Part shown: positions 49,948 to 58,857 of the stretch, in pieces
Numbering within the stretch: position 1 is the first letter of the stretch
Layout: each line of letters begins with the position of its first letter
Origin: Gemmatimonadota bacterium
GTDB taxonomy: Bacteria > Gemmatimonadota > Gemmatimonadetes > Gemmatimonadales > Gemmatimonadaceae
DNA length: 64,000 nucleotides
Reading direction: 5' to 3'
Assembly: GCA_021299375.1 (NCBI GenBank)
Contig: JAJTGR010000017.1
Coordinates: forward strand, 62,001 to 126,000
Notes under the pieces: model-generated
Databases searched by the model: none
What the model was told of the DNA's origin: nothing
The model's input: the letters and a program-made list of their open reading frames with translations, nothing else
Position numbers and translations under genes: made by a program

Positions 49948-52900
49948 CTACTCGAGGTTGCGGCCACTGCCGCCGCGATCGCGCCAGACGACCTCGGCGT
50001 TCCCCGACTGGACTGAGAAGGTGCGCGCGTCCTGGGCCTCGAGGTGCAGTCCCGGGCTGGCCGGGAGCGTCCCCGTGGCGGTAAAGACGACGCTCTTCCC
50101 CTTCCCGGCGGTTGGGGAGAGCCAGGCGGTAAGCTGATTGGTGCCGAGGTCGAGCGTCCACGCGCTGCTGCCCGTGATGGGCACGCTGGCGTAGCCGCTG
50201 GCGTCCGTGGTGGTGGTGACGGTCGTGGCGGTGCTGCCGAAGCGGGCGCCGCCGCCGGTCACCTGCCAGGTCACGGTGGCGCTGGGGATTCCGGCTCCAG
50301 TGGCGTCGGTGACCCGGACGCGGGGGGCAGTTGCCGGGCTCGTCCCCACCGTCGCTGTCTGGCCATTGCCGGCGTCCTGGGTGAGCAGGCCCAGCGACCA
50401 CTTCGCCATGAGTCCGAGTTCCACCGTGCGGCGAGCGGCATCACTCAGCACGCCGGTGAACACGAGCACCTCGCTGATGCGGCCGGTGAGACTGCCGTCG
50501 CCATTGGTGGAGCCATCCCGGCGGTTGCCGAGCGTCTTGACCCAGCCGAGGGCGGCGCCGCTCGCTACGGAACCGGTGAGGCCGCCGTTGGTGAACAGTT
50601 GCCACTGCGCGGAGGAGCGAACCGTCACCAGGACGGGACCGGGTGCGGTGGGGAAGAGCGGGGACGCGATCCCCTGAAAGCGAAATCCGCGCCCCACGTT
50701 GCTGAAGTTCTGGGTCCCGCCGTTCCAGACATCGGACGCTGCCTGAACGTTTTCTCCCCAGTCAAGCACGGTGTACCCGCGATACGAGGTGCCGTCATCG
50801 AGCGGGTCGAACACCAGGAACGTCGTGGTTGTCAACGTCGGGCTGAAGGGGTTCAGCGGGTTGGTCGCCGTCTGCAGGAACCCATTGGTCACGTCGGCGT
50901 TCCAGTGCAACGTTGGGTGGCCGTTGAGCGCGTCGGTCAGGTACGTGGGCTGACGGCTCACCACGGACTGCACCGCCGGTACCTGGCCACCGGAGCGATC
51001 GCCCCACGACGCCACGAGACTGTTGTTGGCGGGTTCGTCGGCGCCGCTGCCGTTGGCGTTGATGTCGGTGGCATCGAGCCACCACGCGACCCCGCACACC
51101 GCGTAGGCACAGGCCCGGCCGGTCGCGGTGAAGACGACACTCTGTCCTTGGCCGGGGGTGCCGCTGAGCCAGGCAGTGAGTGTGTTCACGCCGGGCATGC
51201 CGAGGGTCCAGGAGCCCACGGTGGCCAGGCCGTTGGCGTTGGTGGTGGTGGTTTCGCCGGTGATGGTGCCCCCGCCGCCGGTTACCTGCCAAGTCACGGT
51301 GGCGCCGGCAAGCGGTGCCCCGGAGGCATCGGTGAGGCGCACACGGGGCGCGGTGCCGACCGGACTCCCGGCCAACGCGATCTGCCCCTCGCCCAGATCG
51401 CGGGTCAAGGTGCCGAGCCCCCACTTCACCATGAGGGCGGCTTCGAGGCTGGCCCGCTCGCTCGTGGAGAGCGCGCGGCTGAAGATCAGGACCTCCCCGA
51501 TCGTGCCGAGGAACAGACTGTTCTCCAGGGCGTTGCCAACGGCAAGGCGGGTGCGCCCCAGCGTGTGGCGACTCACGCTGGCCGATTGGCCAGTCCCGCG
51601 GTTGAGGCGCAGGACCTGACTGCTCCCATCGAAGTGTACCGCTCCGAGCGCGGGCGCCGCGGGGAGCGTCCGGTCGATCGTCGGGAACGGCCCGCTGCCG
51701 CTGCCCGGAGGACTCCGGTGCACGGCCCGAGTGCTGGTGAGGGTCTGCGAGGCGGCGACCCGTTCATCCCACCACACCGCAACGCTGCTGGTACCCACCG
51801 AGTCCAGCCGCAAGACACCGTAATCGCGGGCCGCATTCGGCTGAGGCTGGTACACCACGAGCATGCTGTAGCCATCGCCATTGAGACGAGCGGTGCTCAC
51901 GTCGTCGACGTACTGCCCGGCGAGGTTATCGAAGAGGAGGGCCGCGCGACCATTGAGCAGGTTGGTCCCCCGCACGGCCCCCAGCGCCGCGCCGCCACCG
52001 GCGCCGTTCCCGGCGACGGTCACGTCGTTCGCGGCGCCGGATCGGTCGCGGACGACCCGTACGCGGGCGTTCGGGGCGCTTGGCGTCGTGCCGGCATCGT
52101 CGCTGAAGAGGGTGCTGGCCTCGGTGGCGTCGAGCCAGAACGTGGCGCCGCACACGCCGTAGGCGGCCGGCACGGTGCTGGTGACCGTCGCCGTCGTGCT
52201 CAGGGCCTGCCCGTTCACCGTGGCGCGCACGGTGAGCGGGGTCCCGCCGCACGTGGTGGGCATGAGCGTGATCACGCGGCGGCCATCGGCGTCGGTGGTG
52301 CCCTCGTTGCGCACGGTGGCGGTGCCGCCGCTGACCTGAACGTTGACGTTGGCTCCGCTCATCGGGTTGCCGTGGGCATCGCGCGCCGTGACCTCGACGA
52401 GCGTCGTGTCGCCCCCCGTGCTCAGCGCGGGATCGGTGAGGCGGAGCGTACTGGCGGAGGCGTCTACGGCGCCGGCCGTCACGGTGAGTGACGGCGCGCC
52501 GGCGAGCAGCGTGTAGTCGGCAATGGCGCGCAGGGTGGCGGCTTGCGCGGTGGCCGTGGTGATGGTCGCGGTGGCGACGCCGACGGCATCGGTGGCGAGG
52601 GGCGGCTGCGTGATGCCAAGGGCGCGCCCGATCCCGCCAAGCTGCACGGGCACACCGGCGAGGGGCAGCCCGGCGGCAGAGCGGGCGGTGATCGTGGCGG
52701 ACACGGAGCCCGCGGCGCCGACGGTGGCCAGCCCCAGCGTCACCGTACTTTGGCTCGCGCTCACGGCGGTTACCGGGGCGCCGGCGCTGCTCACCGCGAG
52801 CGTCATCGACGCGGTGGTGGTGGCGCTGGAGTCGTCCTGGGCGGTGAGCTGCACACTGTAGCTGCCGGCGCTGCGATAGACGGTGCGCACCACCGGCCCG

Positions 52901-53214
52901 CTCACCTGCGTCACGCCGTTGCCGAGGCTCCAGGTGTAGGCCACGACGCGCCCGTCGCGGTCGAAGGCGTACGAGGCGTCGAAGGTGACGGTATCGCCGG
53001 GCTGGGGCCAGCGCGGGCTGATGCTGAACACCGCCTGCGGCGCGACGTTTGTCGATGCCCGTGGCAGGGACAGCTCGGGGGCACTCGGTGTCTCGTCGCA
53101 GGCGCCCAGGATGGTCGCGATGACCCCCGTGTGGAGCAACCAGCGACGGGGCGCCAACAGGCGGGGGGCGGACAGGCGGGGGGCGGACAGGCGGCGCCGT
53201 CGCATGAAGGACAC
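49948..53214 (-). CDS. PKD/Ig-like/LamG-like lipoprotein adhesin, interrupted at the C-terminus
   Basis: A 1088-residue surface protein. N-terminus: Arg-rich segment, hydrophobic stretch and lipobox LGAC (Cys39), so a lipoprotein. Then a PKD domain (about 58-143, FDRDGRVVAYTWSLGNGV), Big1/Ig-like domains (about 145-350) and repeating units of LamG-like module (WLDATEAS..., WLDATDIN..., third cut by the TAG) separated by Ig-like modules sharing APLAGATVTWQVTGGGG/IPSATVTWQVTGGG and LTAWLSGTPGQGQSVVFTATG. Start is GTG 53214 or ATG 53205, 3 nt after the upstream pilin-like gene, so it is the last gene of the chaperone-usher operon. Role as fibre tip or surface adhesin is inferred from the domains and position. 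Confidence 0.85.
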   Translation of the reverse strand: MSFMRRRRLSAPRLSAPRLLAPRRWLLHTGVIATILGACDETPSAPELSLPRASTNVAPQAVFSISPRWPQPGDTVTFDASYAFDRDGRVVAYTWSLGNGVTQVSGPVVRTVYRSAGSYSVQLTAQDDSSATTTASMTLAVSSAGAPVTAVSASQSTVTLGLATVGAAGSVSATITARSAAGLPLAGVPVQLGGIGRALGITQPPLATDAVGVATATITTATAQAATLRAIADYTLLAGAPSLTVTAGAVDASASTLRLTDPALSTGGDTTLVEVTARDAHGNPMSGANVNVQVSGGTATVRNEGTTDADGRRVITLMPTTCGGTPLTVRATVNGQALSTTATVTSTVPAAYGVCGATFWLDATEASTLFSDDAGTTPSAPNARVRVVRDRSGAANDVTVAGNGAGGGAALGAVRGTNLLNGRAALLFDNLAGQYVDDVSTARLNGDGYSMLVVYQPQPNAARDYGVLRLDSVGTSSVAVWWDERVAASQTLTSTRAVHRSPPGSGSGPFPTIDRTLPAAPALGAVHFDGSSQVLRLNRGTGQSASVSRHTLGRTRLAVGNALENSLFLGTIGEVLIFSRALSTSERASLEAALMVKWGLGTLTRDLGEGQIALAGSPVGTAPRVRLTDASGAPLAGATVTWQVTGGGGTITGETTTTNANGLATVGSWTLGMPGVNTLTAWLSGTPGQGQSVVFTATGRACAYAVCGVAWWLDATDINANGSGADEPANNSLVASWGDRSGGQVPAVQSVVSRQPTYLTDALNGHPTLHWNADVTNGFLQTATNPLNPFSPTLTTTTFLVFDPLDDGTSYRGYTVLDWGENVQAASDVWNGGTQNFSNVGRGFRFQGIASPLFPTAPGPVLVTVRSSAQWQLFTNGGLTGSVASGAALGWVKTLGNRRDGSTNGDGSLTGRISEVLVFTGVLSDAARRTVELGLMAKWSLGLLTQDAGNGQTATVGTSPATAPRVRVTDATGAGIPSATVTWQVTGGGARFGSTATTVTTTTDASGYASVPITGSSAWTLDLGTNQLTAWLSPTAGKGKSVVFTATGTLPASPGLHLEAQDARTFSVQSGNAEVVWRDRGGSGRNLE
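53157..53191 (-). repeat. 15-bp tandem repeat in the adhesin signal region
   Basis: Two full and one partial copy of a 15-bp unit (plus strand ACAGGCGGGGGGCGG) encode the repeated RLSAP residues just before the hydrophobic core of the signal peptide. In-frame copy-number changes would alter the n-region only. Confidence 0.75.
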
Positions 53215-53217
53215 GGG

Positions 53218-54216
53218 TCAGGCCCCCGTGTAGCGGATCGTCACCGCGATCGTGCCGGTGTACATCCCGCCCGGCTGGAGGGCGGCCGGCATGACCGTAC
53301 CCCCCAGGCACACCGTATTGCGCCCTGAGCTGCCCACGGGTGACGCGAGGGACAGCGTGACGCTCTGGCCACTGGTGGTATTGACGGCCGCGCCGGTACA
53401 CTCGGCGCCGGTGCGATGCACCCACGAGCCCACAGGCACGGTGGGGCCATCGCCGCGGCTGAGTTCAGACGGCAAGGCGTCGAATGTCACGTCCACCGAC
53501 GCGTTCAGCGGCCCGTCGATCATGAGCCGCAAGGCAGTCGCCGCGGCGGGTTCGAGCACAGCCGGAACGCCACCGTAGACACGTGGAAAGGTGAGCGGCG
53601 TGGCCAGCACGTTGAGCGGCGCCAGAATCGTGGCCGACACGAGCGCCTGAGTCGTGAGGCTGTTGGCGCCAGTGGTCAGATCTGAGGCGACGAAGGTCAC
53701 CGCGGCGCTGAAGCTGCCGCCAGCCGTGGCGATCGGTGGCTGGAGTGTCCCGCCGAGGCGAATCGTCGCGATACCATCCGCACCGAGTGTGACGGAGAAC
53801 GGGGTCCCGCTAGCCGGCGTGACGACGACCGGTGCCCCCCCGGTCCCCGTGGCCGTGGTGGCGGTCCAGCTCGATACACTGGCGAGTCCCGTGGACGCCA
53901 CGAGCTGGTTGGGGAACGTCAGCGTCGCCTGCAACACCGCGCCCGCGCGGCCGGTGATTGTGAACACGGCCGCCCCGGCGTCCGCTGGCAGCACCGTACG
54001 CAACTGGCGTGGCGCCACCGTGCCGAACGCCAGATCTGCCGACTTGGTGATACGCAGCGATTGTGCATGAAGCAGGTGCAGCGGCAGGAGGGCGATCAGC
54101 GGAAGGACCCCGAGCGCCCTGCGGCCGCCGTGCGCGACGCGCGCCAGCAGGCACCCCCGCAGGCGATTCCGTGCGAGGGGCTGCGCGATGATGGCGCGGA
54201 TGGGGCGGCACCTCAC
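53218..54216 (-). CDS. Two-domain DUF4402/pilin-like secreted protein
   Basis: A 332-residue exported protein. Signal peptide: Arg-rich n-region, hydrophobic LGVLPLIALLPLHLLHAQ, cleavage expected before SLRITKSADLAFG. Two tandem immunoglobulin-like pilin domains follow: the first with LAFGTVAPRQ (about 60-190), the second with TPLTFPRVYGG and ending MYTGTIAVTIRYTGA, the same ending as the divergent one-domain subunit (SYTGQIGVSVNYTGA). The N-terminal strand plus terminal G-Y-T-G beta strand fit the DUF4402 family, relatives of chaperone-usher pilins. GTG 54216 overlaps the stop of the chaperone-usher gene (GTGA). A two-domain subunit suggests an adaptor or tip adhesin. Confidence 0.8.
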   Translation of the reverse strand: MRCRPIRAIIAQPLARNRLRGCLLARVAHGGRRALGVLPLIALLPLHLLHAQSLRITKSADLAFGTVAPRQLRTVLPADAGAAVFTITGRAGAVLQATLTFPNQLVASTGLASVSSWTATTATGTGGAPVVVTPASGTPFSVTLGADGIATIRLGGTLQPPIATAGGSFSAAVTFVASDLTTGANSLTTQALVSATILAPLNVLATPLTFPRVYGGVPAVLEPAAATALRLMIDGPLNASVDVTFDALPSELSRGDGPTVPVGSWVHRTGAECTGAAVNTTSGQSVTLSLASPVGSSGRNTVCLGGTVMPAALQPGGMYTGTIAVTIRYTGA

Positions 54217-57200
54217 GGGACGGGTACGCACCGGACATCGGCGCCTCCGACCTCGGGCACACGGACGCGGACGCCGCTCGACAGCGTGAGCGTCACGGTA
54301 CACGAGAGCTGGCGCGGGTGATCGGTACTGGCTTCGCGACCCCGCTCACGCAGGTCGATCCGATACGTGCCCGCGGGCGCCGGCCCGAGGGGAATGATGC
54401 CGTCGTCGAACACCTCGAGGGGCTGCGCTCGTGCGCCCTTGTGGTCGAGCGACAGGAGCGTGCCCGTCCAGGCGCCCGGCGGGGCCTCGGCCACGCCGCT
54501 CGCGGCGGGCACATAGGGAATGTTGACGCGTGTCTCGCCAAAGGGCACAAGCAAGGACCACTGCACCGGCACACTGGTGACGAGGGAGCGTCCGTCGGGG
54601 CTGTAGGTGAAGGGCAGCTCCGGACTCACCGGGATCGCGTCGAGCACCGGCAACCCGGTAGCCACGAACTGGCCAGCGGCATCGGTCCGGAACGTGGTCC
54701 GCCCAACGCGAATCACCAGATTGGCAAGCCGCGGCTCGGCGGGGCCGGGTTGGCCGTTGCCATCGAGATCTTCGAAGGCCACGCCGGCAATCGCGGACCG
54801 GAGCGCCACGAAGTCATTGCTGAGCCGCACGCCGCTCGTGCCGGGACGGACCGAGGCGGACCCGAGGAGTGTCGTCGTAGACTGGGCGACCCCGCGTACA
54901 CTGCCGAGGACCGATTGCACCAGCGTGGCAAAGGGGCCCTGCTGCTGGAACTGCACACGGACGCTTGCCCCCATGAAGGGGCGCCAGTCGGCGGCGGCCT
55001 GCACCTGCAACCCGGGGCCCATCGCCAGCGCGGCCTGTGCGCTGACAAGCTGGAGCCGCTGCTGCGTGTCCATCGCGCCGCTCAGCGTGGTGAGCGTACG
55101 GCGCAGCAGAGTGGGGCCCCGACGCCATTGCGGCACGGTGAGGCTCAGGGTGGCGGTGCCCCCGCGCTGGGGCACCGGATCGAAGGGGCCCCGCTGCTGA
55201 ATCCCGTCCCATATCGCCTGGAGCAGCATGCCATTCGTGCGGACCCCGACGGTGCCGGAAAGCCCGGCCGCGACGGAGTGCGAATAAAGAAGCTCACGCC
55301 ACTGCGAGCTGATCCAGAAGCGCCCGAGGTCGCGGGCGAACGGTCGGATCGTGACCTGCGCCTGTCGCTCCTGAACGGAGAACCGCGCCCGGGCGCCCAA
55401 CCAGAAGGGGGCGCGGGCGGAATCGATCACTTCCTGGCCAACCTCGAGACGCAGCCGGAGCGAGGGCTGGAATACGGCGCGCGCGCGCCACCAGCCCTCC
55501 CGGGCCGCCTCCCCGCGAACCTGAAGGGCGTTCACGGGCGAAGCCGCGACGGTGGCGTACGGTTCGCTACGGACGATGCCGTCGGGGAAGCGCAACTGGT
55601 AGCTGCCGGCGCGCACGGTGAGGCGGGTGCTGAGGCCGATGCGCAGGTCCGCGTTACCCATGAGCCCGCACGCCCCGACCCCCAGCCGGCACTCGCTCCC
55701 CAGCATGTCGAGCGACTGCGCGGTCAGGCCGTACTCCACCTGGCGCGCGGCGATGAGATCGGTTTCGAGACCGAAGAGGGCAGAACTGCGCCGCACCCCG
55801 TCGGCGGTGTAGATGGCGACTTCAATGGCGTTTTCCCCGAACATCACTGGTACCGGCAGCGACCAGTGCCCGGTGCTGTCGGCGGTCGCGATGCCGATGA
55901 CCTGGCCATTTCGCGAGATCTCGACTTCGGCGCCCGGCGGCGCCGACCCGCTGCGCACCACGGTGCCGATGTTCGCAGAGCGCAGGAACGGCGCATTCGT
56001 GAGCGAGACGCCATTGCCCGAGATGGGCAATGGTCCCGTGCTCGAGCCTGCCCCAAGGCGCAGCTGCCGCAGCCAGGGATTCTTCGGGTTGCCGCCGAGC
56101 CAGCTCGTCATGGCATCGAGCCGACGGTGGCCGGTGAGTCGTGAGGAGATGATCTGGGTGGAGAGGCCACCGCCGAGGACGGTCGTACCGAGCGTCGACA
56201 CGGCCATGTGATCGCCGGTGGTGTTGTCGACGGCCGCATTGTAGGTCAGGGTCAGTCCCGACGGCAGCCAGCCTCCGCGCTGCAGACGGCTGGCGGGGGA
56301 CCACGTGAGCAGCTCGGCAAGCCCGTCGCTCTCCACCTGTCGGCGCGGCCGACTCGCCGTGAGGCGCGGAAGCAACTCACGAGGCGTATCGACCACGAGC
56401 GTCGAGGTGGGCTCGTCGACGCGCGCCGAAATCCCCATCAGCGCGGGGAGGTGGACCGGATCGACGTACCAATCGCCCCCTTCCCACTGGAGCGCCTGTG
56501 CACCGAGCTCCACCTGTTCGGTGACGCGGCTGCCAACCCGTCGGGTGGCCGTGCCGGTGCGGGGGTCGACGGTCACCACGAGGAGCTGCTGTCCTCGCGA
56601 GGTGATGTGCAGGGCGCGCGGGCCCAGGCTGTCGACGGCGATGCCCAGGAGGCGAGCCACTCCGCGCAGCGGGACGCGCGAATGTCCGAGGGAAGGTCCC
56701 TCGAGCGTCAGGATGGTTCCGACCTCCACGCCGGCGACCGCGACCGCCAGGACGCCCACATCCGGATCGCGTCGCAGGGTGTCGGTCCCTGTGCGTAACG
56801 GATCGACGAGCCCGATCGATCGCGTGGCGGTGATGGTGTCTGCGGCCGTGGGTGTGCGGGGGCCCCGTGAGACCGTGCCGGTCTGGTCGCGGGGCAGAAC
56901 GCCGAGCGTGTCGGCCGGGATCTCCACTCCCTCCGGCTCCTCGAGGTCGTCGGGCTTCTCGGGCGCCTCAGGTGCCTCAAGTGACGCATCGTGCGGGGGC
57001 TGCCACGAGGTGAGGGCGCCCCACGGGGCGGCGGGGGCGGCGTCGAGTCGCTCCCCAGGAGCTGTCGGAGGATTGCCGGATCCGTCTGGTGGCGAGGTAA
57101 GCGGAGCCGTGACGGTGACCGGCGTGAAGGGCAGGACAAAACCCTCGGGAAGATCCGGCCGGCGTGACGTGACGGTCACCCGCACCTGTTGTACGCGCGC

Positions 57201-58040
57201 GAGGACAGCGGCGGGGACCGGCAGGCTCACGCGGGGGGTCAATGCGTGGTAGACGGCCAGCTGGCGGGTTTCCGAGGCGAGCACAGTGCCGTTCGCGTCG
57301 AGCGCATCGAGTTGGAGAGCGCCCACGGCCGCCCCGTTCCCCGTGCGATCGAAGCGGAGGGAAAGCTCGACCCCACTGGGACTGCGCACCGCCGACGTGA
57401 TCGCCGCCGTGAGCCCCGTTCGCACCGGCCCCTTGCGGAAGTACACGGGGATGACGGTCTGCACCTGCAGGCTGATCTCGCCAGCGACCCCAGGGTTAGT
57501 AGTAGTGCCGGTCGTGGGCCGCTCGTCGCGTCGGCTCGTGATGGACATGCGCGCCCAGTATTCACCATCGGCCAGCGCCGCCCGGGACAGCGCCACGATG
57601 CGCACGATCTGCGTAGCGCCGGGCGCGAGGCGGAAGCGGACGGGGGAGAAACGAATCAGGGGAACGGCCGAGTTGGCGGGGGCGACGGAGTCGTCGAGTA
57701 TCCGCACGGTCGTCGCGCCGGTGCTGCTGTCGGTCACGAGGTCCCCGTATCGCAGCCCGATCCGCACGTCGAGCGGGACCTCATTCTGATTGAGAACCGT
57801 TATGGCGCCACTGGGGGTACGATCGGTGACGTGGATGACCTGGGGGGCGACGCTTGTGGCCTGCGCCAGCAGGGGCGCTGGCGCGAGGAGCAGGGTGGCC
57901 GCCACCCACGTCGCCAGTCCGCGACGGGCGCGCGTCAGGAGTCTCCGCGCCCCGCGAAGGGGCGTGCGGGCCACGCGGTGGGAGGAGGCCAGTCCCGAAT
58001 TGCACATAGTCGTCCGATTGACGCACGACCAGCGCGACAC
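54213..58040 (-). CDS. Chaperone-usher fusion protein
   Basis: A 1275-residue exported protein joining two components normally encoded separately. Signal peptide ends near residue 60 (LLLAPAPLLAQ). Residues about 63-310 resemble a PapD-type pilus chaperone: IHVTDRTPSGAITVLNQNEV, the strand RFSPVRFRLAPGATQIVRIV and DGEYWARMSI, then a second beta domain. A Pro/Glu/Asp-rich linker (about 311-425) leads to an N-terminal usher/periplasmic region (425-560) and a beta-barrel (about 575-1070) interrupted by a usher-middle-like sandwich (GNGVSLTNAPFLRSANIG, PPGAEVEISRNGQVIG, FGENAIEVAIYTADG). A DLDGNGQPGPAEPRL module and a basic C-terminal domain follow. Alternative start ATG 58007. First gene of a three-gene operon with pilin-like and adhesin genes. 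Confidence 0.8.
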   Translation of the reverse strand: MSRWSCVNRTTMCNSGLASSHRVARTPLRGARRLLTRARRGLATWVAATLLLAPAPLLAQATSVAPQVIHVTDRTPSGAITVLNQNEVPLDVRIGLRYGDLVTDSSTGATTVRILDDSVAPANSAVPLIRFSPVRFRLAPGATQIVRIVALSRAALADGEYWARMSITSRRDERPTTGTTTNPGVAGEISLQVQTVIPVYFRKGPVRTGLTAAITSAVRSPSGVELSLRFDRTGNGAAVGALQLDALDANGTVLASETRQLAVYHALTPRVSLPVPAAVLARVQQVRVTVTSRRPDLPEGFVLPFTPVTVTAPLTSPPDGSGNPPTAPGERLDAAPAAPWGALTSWQPPHDASLEAPEAPEKPDDLEEPEGVEIPADTLGVLPRDQTGTVSRGPRTPTAADTITATRSIGLVDPLRTGTDTLRRDPDVGVLAVAVAGVEVGTILTLEGPSLGHSRVPLRGVARLLGIAVDSLGPRALHITSRGQQLLVVTVDPRTGTATRRVGSRVTEQVELGAQALQWEGGDWYVDPVHLPALMGISARVDEPTSTLVVDTPRELLPRLTASRPRRQVESDGLAELLTWSPASRLQRGGWLPSGLTLTYNAAVDNTTGDHMAVSTLGTTVLGGGLSTQIISSRLTGHRRLDAMTSWLGGNPKNPWLRQLRLGAGSSTGPLPISGNGVSLTNAPFLRSANIGTVVRSGSAPPGAEVEISRNGQVIGIATADSTGHWSLPVPVMFGENAIEVAIYTADGVRRSSALFGLETDLIAARQVEYGLTAQSLDMLGSECRLGVGACGLMGNADLRIGLSTRLTVRAGSYQLRFPDGIVRSEPYATVAASPVNALQVRGEAAREGWWRARAVFQPSLRLRLEVGQEVIDSARAPFWLGARARFSVQERQAQVTIRPFARDLGRFWISSQWRELLYSHSVAAGLSGTVGVRTNGMLLQAIWDGIQQRGPFDPVPQRGGTATLSLTVPQWRRGPTLLRRTLTTLSGAMDTQQRLQLVSAQAALAMGPGLQVQAAADWRPFMGASVRVQFQQQGPFATLVQSVLGSVRGVAQSTTTLLGSASVRPGTSGVRLSNDFVALRSAIAGVAFEDLDGNGQPGPAEPRLANLVIRVGRTTFRTDAAGQFVATGLPVLDAIPVSPELPFTYSPDGRSLVTSVPVQWSLLVPFGETRVNIPYVPAASGVAEAPPGAWTGTLLSLDHKGARAQPLEVFDDGIIPLGPAPAGTYRIDLRERGREASTDHPRQLSCTVTLTLSSGVRVRVPEVGGADVRCVPVP

Positions 58041-58305
58041 GTAACGGCCCTGCCGGTGACGAAATGTTCCGGCCGTGCGCCCGGTGCGCGAACTGCGCCA
58101 GCGCGCGCTCAGGCCCGCTTCAGTTTGGGTGGGAGGCGACGATACTGACGGTCGAACGGGGGAGCGGTATCCGCGACGCTGTCACGCGGCTGGCATCATC
58201 CCTCACGGCAAACAAACGCTGGCCACACGCGTGATGACGGACCTGTCACGTCGTGCGTCTTCAGTGTACGAACGACGCTGTTCGGCCCCTCAATCTGGAC
58301 TTCCC
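58041..58305. promoter_or_regulatory. Divergent control region of the chaperone-usher locus
   Basis: The 265 nt between the minus-strand chaperone-usher gene and the plus-strand subunit gene must hold both promoters. On the plus strand a weak CTGTCA (58250-58255), 18 nt, TACGAA pair is visible; no strong -35/-10 pair stands out on either strand, which would fit a regulated or activator-dependent locus. Confidence 0.35.
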
Positions 58306-58857
58306 ATGCAACCGATCACACTCCGACATGCCGCGCTGGCGGCGCTCCTCCTGGGCGCGGCTCCGCTCGCAGCACAGGCCGGCCCCGTCCAGACCGTCAA
58401 TGTCCCCGTGAGTGCCCGGGTATTCACGCCCCTCACGGTGACCAGCACCGACAACCTGCGGTTCGGTACCCTATACGCCCCTTCGACCACGCCGAAGGCG
58501 GTCGACTTCATCGACAACGCCGCCAGCGGTGGCCGGGCCCGGGTGACCATCGCCGGCGAGGGGGGCGCCGCACTGAACGTGGTGCTGACCGTCCCGAGCG
58601 AACTGACGAGCGGCGGGAACAGCCTGTCCGTCGGCAGCTTCGCCCTCCGTTGGAATACCAACGATGCGGACGGGGCGGGCACCGACGTCAACCTGACCGC
58701 TGGCAGTAACACCATCTCGCTCACGATGCCGGGATCGAACGCGACAACCCAGAACATGTACCTGCGCTTCCGCGCGACCGCCTCGCCGACCGCGAACCAG
58801 GCGGCGGGGAGCTACACCGGTCAGATCGGTGTGAGCGTGAATTACACGGGCGCGTAA
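58306..58857 (+). CDS. One-domain DUF4402/pilin-like subunit
   Basis: A 183-residue exported protein. Signal peptide MQPITLRHAALAALLLGAAP ends at AAQA; the mature N-terminus GPVQTVNVPVSARVFTPLTV is an alternating hydrophobic strand of the sort used in donor-strand exchange. The body contains LRFGTLYAPST and RARVTIAGEGGAALNVVLTV and it ends SYTGQIGVSVNYTGA, matching the two-domain protein on the other strand. ATG 58306 is the only start that gives an intact signal peptide. Probably the major subunit of the fibre assembled by the fusion usher. A strong hairpin follows at 58898. Confidence 0.85.
   Translation: MQPITLRHAALAALLLGAAPLAAQAGPVQTVNVPVSARVFTPLTVTSTDNLRFGTLYAPSTTPKAVDFIDNAASGGRARVTIAGEGGAALNVVLTVPSELTSGGNSLSVGSFALRWNTNDADGAGTDVNLTAGSNTISLTMPGSNATTQNMYLRFRATASPTANQAAGSYTGQIGVSVNYTGA

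Follow-up and report, generated by a model that had tools for sequence, protein, structure and literature searches.

Results

A chaperone and an usher in a single open reading frame

The window, that is, the whole stretch of 64,000 nucleotides that was analyzed, contains a gene cluster in which a predicted PapD-type chaperone and a predicted usher are encoded in one open reading frame, next to two genes for DUF4402 pilin-type proteins and a gene for a large lipoprotein (Table 1). The first-pass annotation of this DNA had listed the frame without a strand; the frame does exist and, according to both the ORF list and the translation, lies on the minus strand. The signal peptide, the N-terminal chaperone-like region, the linker and the C-terminal usher-like region that had been read in it are all present, and the linker, described at that stage as rich in Pro and Glu, consists of 113 residues with 17% Pro, 7% Glu and 11% Asp. 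The start codon is uncertain and could be the first GTG or, perhaps, the ATG at 58007. The gene is present in a single copy in the genome from which the window was taken (hereafter G000).

Table 1. Genes of the chaperone-usher locus and parts of the fused protein
Feature	Position	Strand	Basis
DUF4402 pilin, single-domain, divergently oriented, with an N-terminal extension (probable start ATG 58306)	58264..58857	(+)	Pfam; family compared with FimA; synteny
Fused chaperone-usher gene, stop included, 1275 codons from the first GTG	54213..58040	(-)	ORF list and translation
Signal peptide region, aa 1-61, ...LATWVAATLLLAPAPLLAQA	57858..58040	(-)	Sequence, hydrophobic stretch; same place in aligned relatives
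PapD-type chaperone part, putatively two-domain, aa ~62-314	57099..57857	(-)	hhalign to E. coli chaperones and EcpB/EcpE; PapD_N in relatives
Linker rich in Pro/Thr/Ala/Asp/Glu, aa 315-427	56760..57098	(-)	Composition, hydropathy; alignment of the four fused proteins
Usher part (N-terminal domain, predicted barrel with plug, C-terminal domains), aa 428-1275	54216..56759	(-)	hhalign to FimD and other E. coli ushers
Ig-like, plug-type insertion within the barrel, approx. aa 692-750, APPGAEVEISRNGQVIG...	55791..55967	(-)	Big_6/CarboxypepD_reg matches; aligned to the FimD middle region
First C-terminal domain, SdrD_B-like, CTD1 position, approx. aa 1084-1185	54486..54791	(-)	SdrD_B matches in relatives; alignment
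Second C-terminal domain, CTD2 position, approx. aa 1186-1275	54216..54485	(-)	Alignment; profile end positions
Two-domain DUF4402 (pilin-type) protein	53218..54303 (ORF limits; true start nearer 54070)	(-)	Pfam DUF4402
Large PKD/Big_1/LamG-type lipoprotein, lipobox LGAC, last gene of the module	49948..53214	(-)	Pfam

Homology of the two halves to known chaperones and ushers

Relatives were gathered from 298 genomes of the phylum, 30 of the genus and 179 of the family, and from named GTDB genomes (59 loci). Profiles built from the two families (84 chaperones, 67 ushers) were set against those of the E. coli K-12 proteins (8 chaperones, 7 ushers) with hhalign. The chaperone part matched the 8 E. 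coli chaperones with an E-value of 4.5e-6 (score 46.3, probability 87%) over 131 columns that correspond to the N-terminal domain, compared to a score of 20.0 for the best of 30 column shuffles and 15.5 for the reversed profile. For the usher part, the match to the 7 E. coli ushers was stronger (E 4.3e-12, score 112.4, 98%) and covered 538 aligned columns, which begin where the N-terminal domain ends and extend across the barrel and the plug into the C-terminal region, the best of 30 shuffles scoring 22.5 and the reversed control 25.7. Crossed comparisons of chaperone with usher profiles gave 0.1-0.2%. The chaperone profile also matched the alternative chaperones EcpB/EcpE, with an E-value of 3.2e-6 that comes without a shuffled control for this pair. 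At the level of profile comparison, the evidence for homology of both halves to the E. coli chaperone-usher system is decisive.

The second domain of the chaperone part remained unaligned in the profile-profile comparison with the E. coli chaperones, and the usher N-terminal domain, although in the right place, could not be aligned by profile to FimD 1-133. The C-terminus of the window's usher consists of two domains whose sequence type differs from that of FimD/PapC and matches the SdrD_B/CarboxypepD_reg-type families. In a few ushers, there is a match to Cu_amine_oxidN1 (PF07833, best E 1.6e-5); it lies perhaps in the N-terminal domain, in which case it would fit a non-FimD type of this domain.

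Searches with single sequences were far less sensitive. The full fused protein retrieved weak Ig-type families only from Pfam, and no curated usher or chaperone match was found in single-sequence Pfam and PDB searches; the window's chaperone part alone reached PapD_N with an E-value of 0.015, and the relatives reached PapD_N at 8.8e-7 and Usher at 0.0013. The PDB sequence searches returned one fimbrial chaperone, 2co6, at E 1. Matches to SdrD B and NOMO2 were set aside as unrelated or domain-type, and a match to abrin at E 0.034 as a chance hit.

Within the chaperone family, the classical (FGS/FGL) carboxylate anchor R8/K112 (PapD numbering) is, judging by the alignment, absent: the two columns contain Arg or Lys in 1% and 0% of the 84 chaperones. 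All 84 chaperones have the same Arg in strand F1, which is aligned with Arg89 of EcpB (mature numbering), the residue that has been demonstrated to be the anchor of archaic and alternative chaperones (PMC4654587). The other two anchor residues could be a Tyr (78/84) and an Arg (81/84) of domain 2, matched by position only. Also invariant in the family is a Pro (84/84), and the alternation of the G1 donor strand is kept, with hydrophobic residues in 100, 99 and 76% of the proteins at positions 1, 3 and 5.

Pilins and the lipoprotein gene

The profile of the DUF4402 pilin family matches E. coli FimA-type pilins with an E-value of 9.7e-6 (0.5% probability for the reversed control). Because the neighbouring DUF4402 proteins match FimA-type pilins, the locus is identified as a chaperone-usher pilus operon. 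Pilins of this type adjoin the chaperone and the usher at nearly all loci; the usual arrangement is one or more pilins, the chaperone, in some cases another pilin, and then the usher. In one locus on a short contig (L080), the order is pilin-pilin-chaperone-pilin-chaperone, with two different chaperone genes of the family in one cluster.

The single-domain pilin at 58264-58857 is probably the shaft subunit. In the two-domain protein at 53218-54303, the first DUF4402 domain is without an N-terminal extension, which suggests, by analogy, a tip subunit. The second DUF4402 domain, in this protein and in those of L074, L133, L134 and L032, opens with an extension-like strand; by the same analogy with two-domain tip subunits, this strand could complete the first domain. 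The lipobox of the lipoprotein is conserved in homologues beside pilus genes, and the protein is possibly a surface adhesin linked to the pilus. The module of pilin, chaperone-usher, two-domain pilin and lipoprotein is kept in all four loci with a fused gene and in the split sister locus L032 (genome G135), the contigs of the three other fused loci ending inside the lipoprotein gene.

Distribution and origin of the fusion

The first-pass annotation had proposed to align relatives and look for an internal stop or split genes. The chaperone and the usher form a single open frame in four species, all of the window's genus (G000, G289, G298 and G307; 42-82% pairwise identity), and two genes in the remaining chaperone-usher loci examined, about 80 in number, which were sampled from Gemmatimonadota, Zixibacteria, Ignavibacteria, Calditrichota, Bacteroidetes and one deltaproteobacterial bin. 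Among the split cases are two genomes of the same genus, G019 and G068. The fused proteins form a single clade in both trees (SH-aLRT 98 for the usher and 90 for the chaperone), with the split G135 as the sister. These phylogenies indicate a single fusion event, in part of one Gemmatimonadaceae genus; the split state is ancestral and widespread. The claim of a PapD-type chaperone and an usher in one polypeptide is strongly backed by homology, synteny, the loss of the second signal peptide (see below) and a clade of single origin. Long frames of 1147-1623 aa in G027, G073, G081 and G123 were rejected as further fusions, being read-throughs of one stop codon with ushers that have their own signal peptides. 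In a Zixibacteria bin, one stop codon cuts the usher (L087, 10760-13465) into two in-frame pieces of 682 and 218 aa, which reflects either a disrupted gene or an error in sequencing.

The domain in the CTD2 position is missing from the fused ushers of G289, G298 and G307, in which the usher profile ends at 742-752 of about 837, compared to 796 or more in complete split ushers. Because the window's fused protein retains this domain, the loss came after the fusion and was not required by it.

The linker and the signal peptides

No second signal peptide was found in the fused linker, where the maximum 15-residue hydropathy is 0.69 compared to 1.83 in the signal peptide. Split ushers with a readable start have a signal peptide of their own, a few divergent or long N-termini being unclear. 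In the split usher of G135, the signal peptide is followed by a long Pro-rich spacer, which is a plausible source of the fused linker.

The linker is poorly conserved across the four fused proteins, as would be expected for a tether and equally for a cleavable spacer, and the alignment of the four linkers reveals no shared motif for cleavage. Between G289 and G298, the linker is relaxed, with 33 nonsynonymous and 18 synonymous codon changes, but its gaps are whole codons. By the same codon-level comparison, the chaperone and usher halves are both under purifying selection, with 81/121 and 223/362 of the differences in the two halves located in third codon positions.

Other chaperones in genomes with the fusion

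In G000, which is 96% complete, the family profile detected the fused copy only, and searches with PapD_N and with Usher returned nothing; at this completeness, a free chaperone could be encoded in the portion that is missing or have diverged too far to be detected. G307 carries a second, distant chaperone-like gene (PapD_N similarity at E 0.0018), so that delivery by a free chaperone is possible in this species. The distant type was not found in G000, G289 (88% complete) or G298 (70% complete), its absence carrying less weight in the latter two given their completeness. This second chaperone-usher-like type occurs in some members of the genus (L169, L170 and L171); it shows weak PapD_N similarity and the chaperone motifs CWxLVVVE and REDNSL, and its usher is hardly detected by the usher profile.

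Discussion

The chaperone-usher cycle, in which the chaperone binds, docks, releases and diffuses away, is among the best understood of membrane nanomachines. We interpret the locus as a chaperone-usher pilus system in which the chaperone and the usher are one polypeptide and the chaperone, being tethered, is recycled at its own usher, a reading to which we assign a probability of about 0.6. It is consistent with all the data, whereas cleavage of the linker in the periplasm would restore the usual logic. Under this model, the fused protein would be exported via its one signal peptide and its barrel placed in the outer membrane, with the chaperone part held on a flexible tether of 80-115 residues that leads into the periplasmic N-terminal domain of the usher. 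The chaperone part would cap DUF4402 pilins by its G1 strand, pass them in cis to the usher, and then be recycled in place instead of being released.

In the established cycle, a new chaperone-subunit complex is recruited by the N-terminal domain of the usher while its predecessor is bound to the C-terminal domains, and donor strand exchange releases the older chaperone (PMC8410936); FimD functions as a monomer (PMC3650583). Because this amounts to two complexes per usher, one tethered chaperone cannot occupy both sites, and the system might rely either on delivery in trans among neighbouring fused ushers or on a simplified cycle with one complex. That three of the four fused proteins are without the CTD2-position domain agrees with an altered cycle. 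With slightly less than even confidence, we further propose that the sole chaperone is covalently part of the usher and that one recycled tether (or neighbours acting in trans) replaces the two-site cycle with its diffusing chaperone, allowing the loss of the CTD2-position domain.

The main rival to tethering is that the fused protein is a polyprotein, with a periplasmic protease cutting the Pro-rich linker after export to yield a diffusible chaperone and a normal usher, so that the fusion would fix only 1:1 expression. The linker has properties that would suit such a role, being long, weakly conserved, rich in Pro, Glu and Asp, and richer in nonsynonymous than in synonymous changes, and each usher normally calls for many chaperones and for two complexes at the same time (PMC8410936). 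However, the latter requirement also makes a 1:1 supply a poor solution where an excess of chaperone is needed, the four linkers share no visible cleavage motif, and the domain loss in three of the four ushers suggests a cycle that is itself altered; on balance, we consider cleavage unlikely. Another reading, in which the N-terminal part is no longer a chaperone and now serves the usher as an additional periplasmic domain, with general or unrelated chaperones handling the pilins, would agree with the long branches that place the fused chaperones among the more diverged of the family. It appears improbable given the retention of the F1 Arg, the Pro and the donor-strand alternation, the purifying selection between G289 and G298, and the failure to find another chaperone in G000.

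The probability that two genes were joined artificially, through an error in sequencing or assembly or a frameshift, is negligible. The assemblies are draft or metagenome and, in several relatives, both genes are in frame with only a single stop codon and the leader of the second gene between them; nevertheless, the identical architecture is found in four species with 42-82% identity, and the second signal peptide has left no remnant in the fused proteins. The three further species with the same single-frame fusion exclude chance or an assembly error. We regard as very improbable the view that the gene encodes an unrelated Ig-barrel protein resembling a chaperone-usher through composition. The lack of curated matches in the single-sequence searches is what might be expected in that case, but the chaperone and usher profile scores far exceed those of the shuffled and reversed controls, the pilin profile score exceeds that of its reversed control, and the chaperone, usher and pilins are all found together in one operon.

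Compared to the type 1 pili of E. coli (FimC/FimD/FimA), the system described here has a homologous chaperone, usher (barrel and plug) and pilins, encoded by adjacent genes in the same operon order. It differs in that the chaperone and the usher, separate in E. coli, share one frame, the R8/K112 anchor is absent, the usher N-terminal domain cannot be aligned to that of FimD, and the C-terminal domains match other families. The archaic and alternative systems (Csu, Ecp; PMC4654587) likewise lack the classical anchor, and their anchor Arg has its aligned counterpart here in strand F1, whereas the conserved Tyr and Arg of domain 2 correspond by position only, and any assignment to these classes is tentative; unlike the fused protein, these systems have a separate chaperone. 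The unfused homologues (about 80 loci, e.g. L032 of G135, where the module is identical) have the same chaperone, usher and DUF4402 pilin families, but in them chaperone and usher are two genes, the usher having the signal peptide that the fused proteins lack at this point.

In the open-access papers searched, we found neither a description of a chaperone-usher fusion occurring in nature nor a mention of DUF4402. The carriers of the fusion represent a single small branch of bacteria from soil and water. A natural fusion makes it possible to test the need for release and diffusion of the chaperone, the number of chaperones per usher and the cooperation of ushers as oligomers. The survey also extends chaperone-usher pili with DUF4402 pilins across Gemmatimonadota, Zixibacteria and neighbouring phyla, where the standard family models largely miss them. 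Apart from the fused clade, in L033-L036 and L127, the chaperone and the usher are in frame with each other, and only one TAG stop and a short leader that contains a signal peptide lie between them; in several lineages, this state is one step short of fusion.
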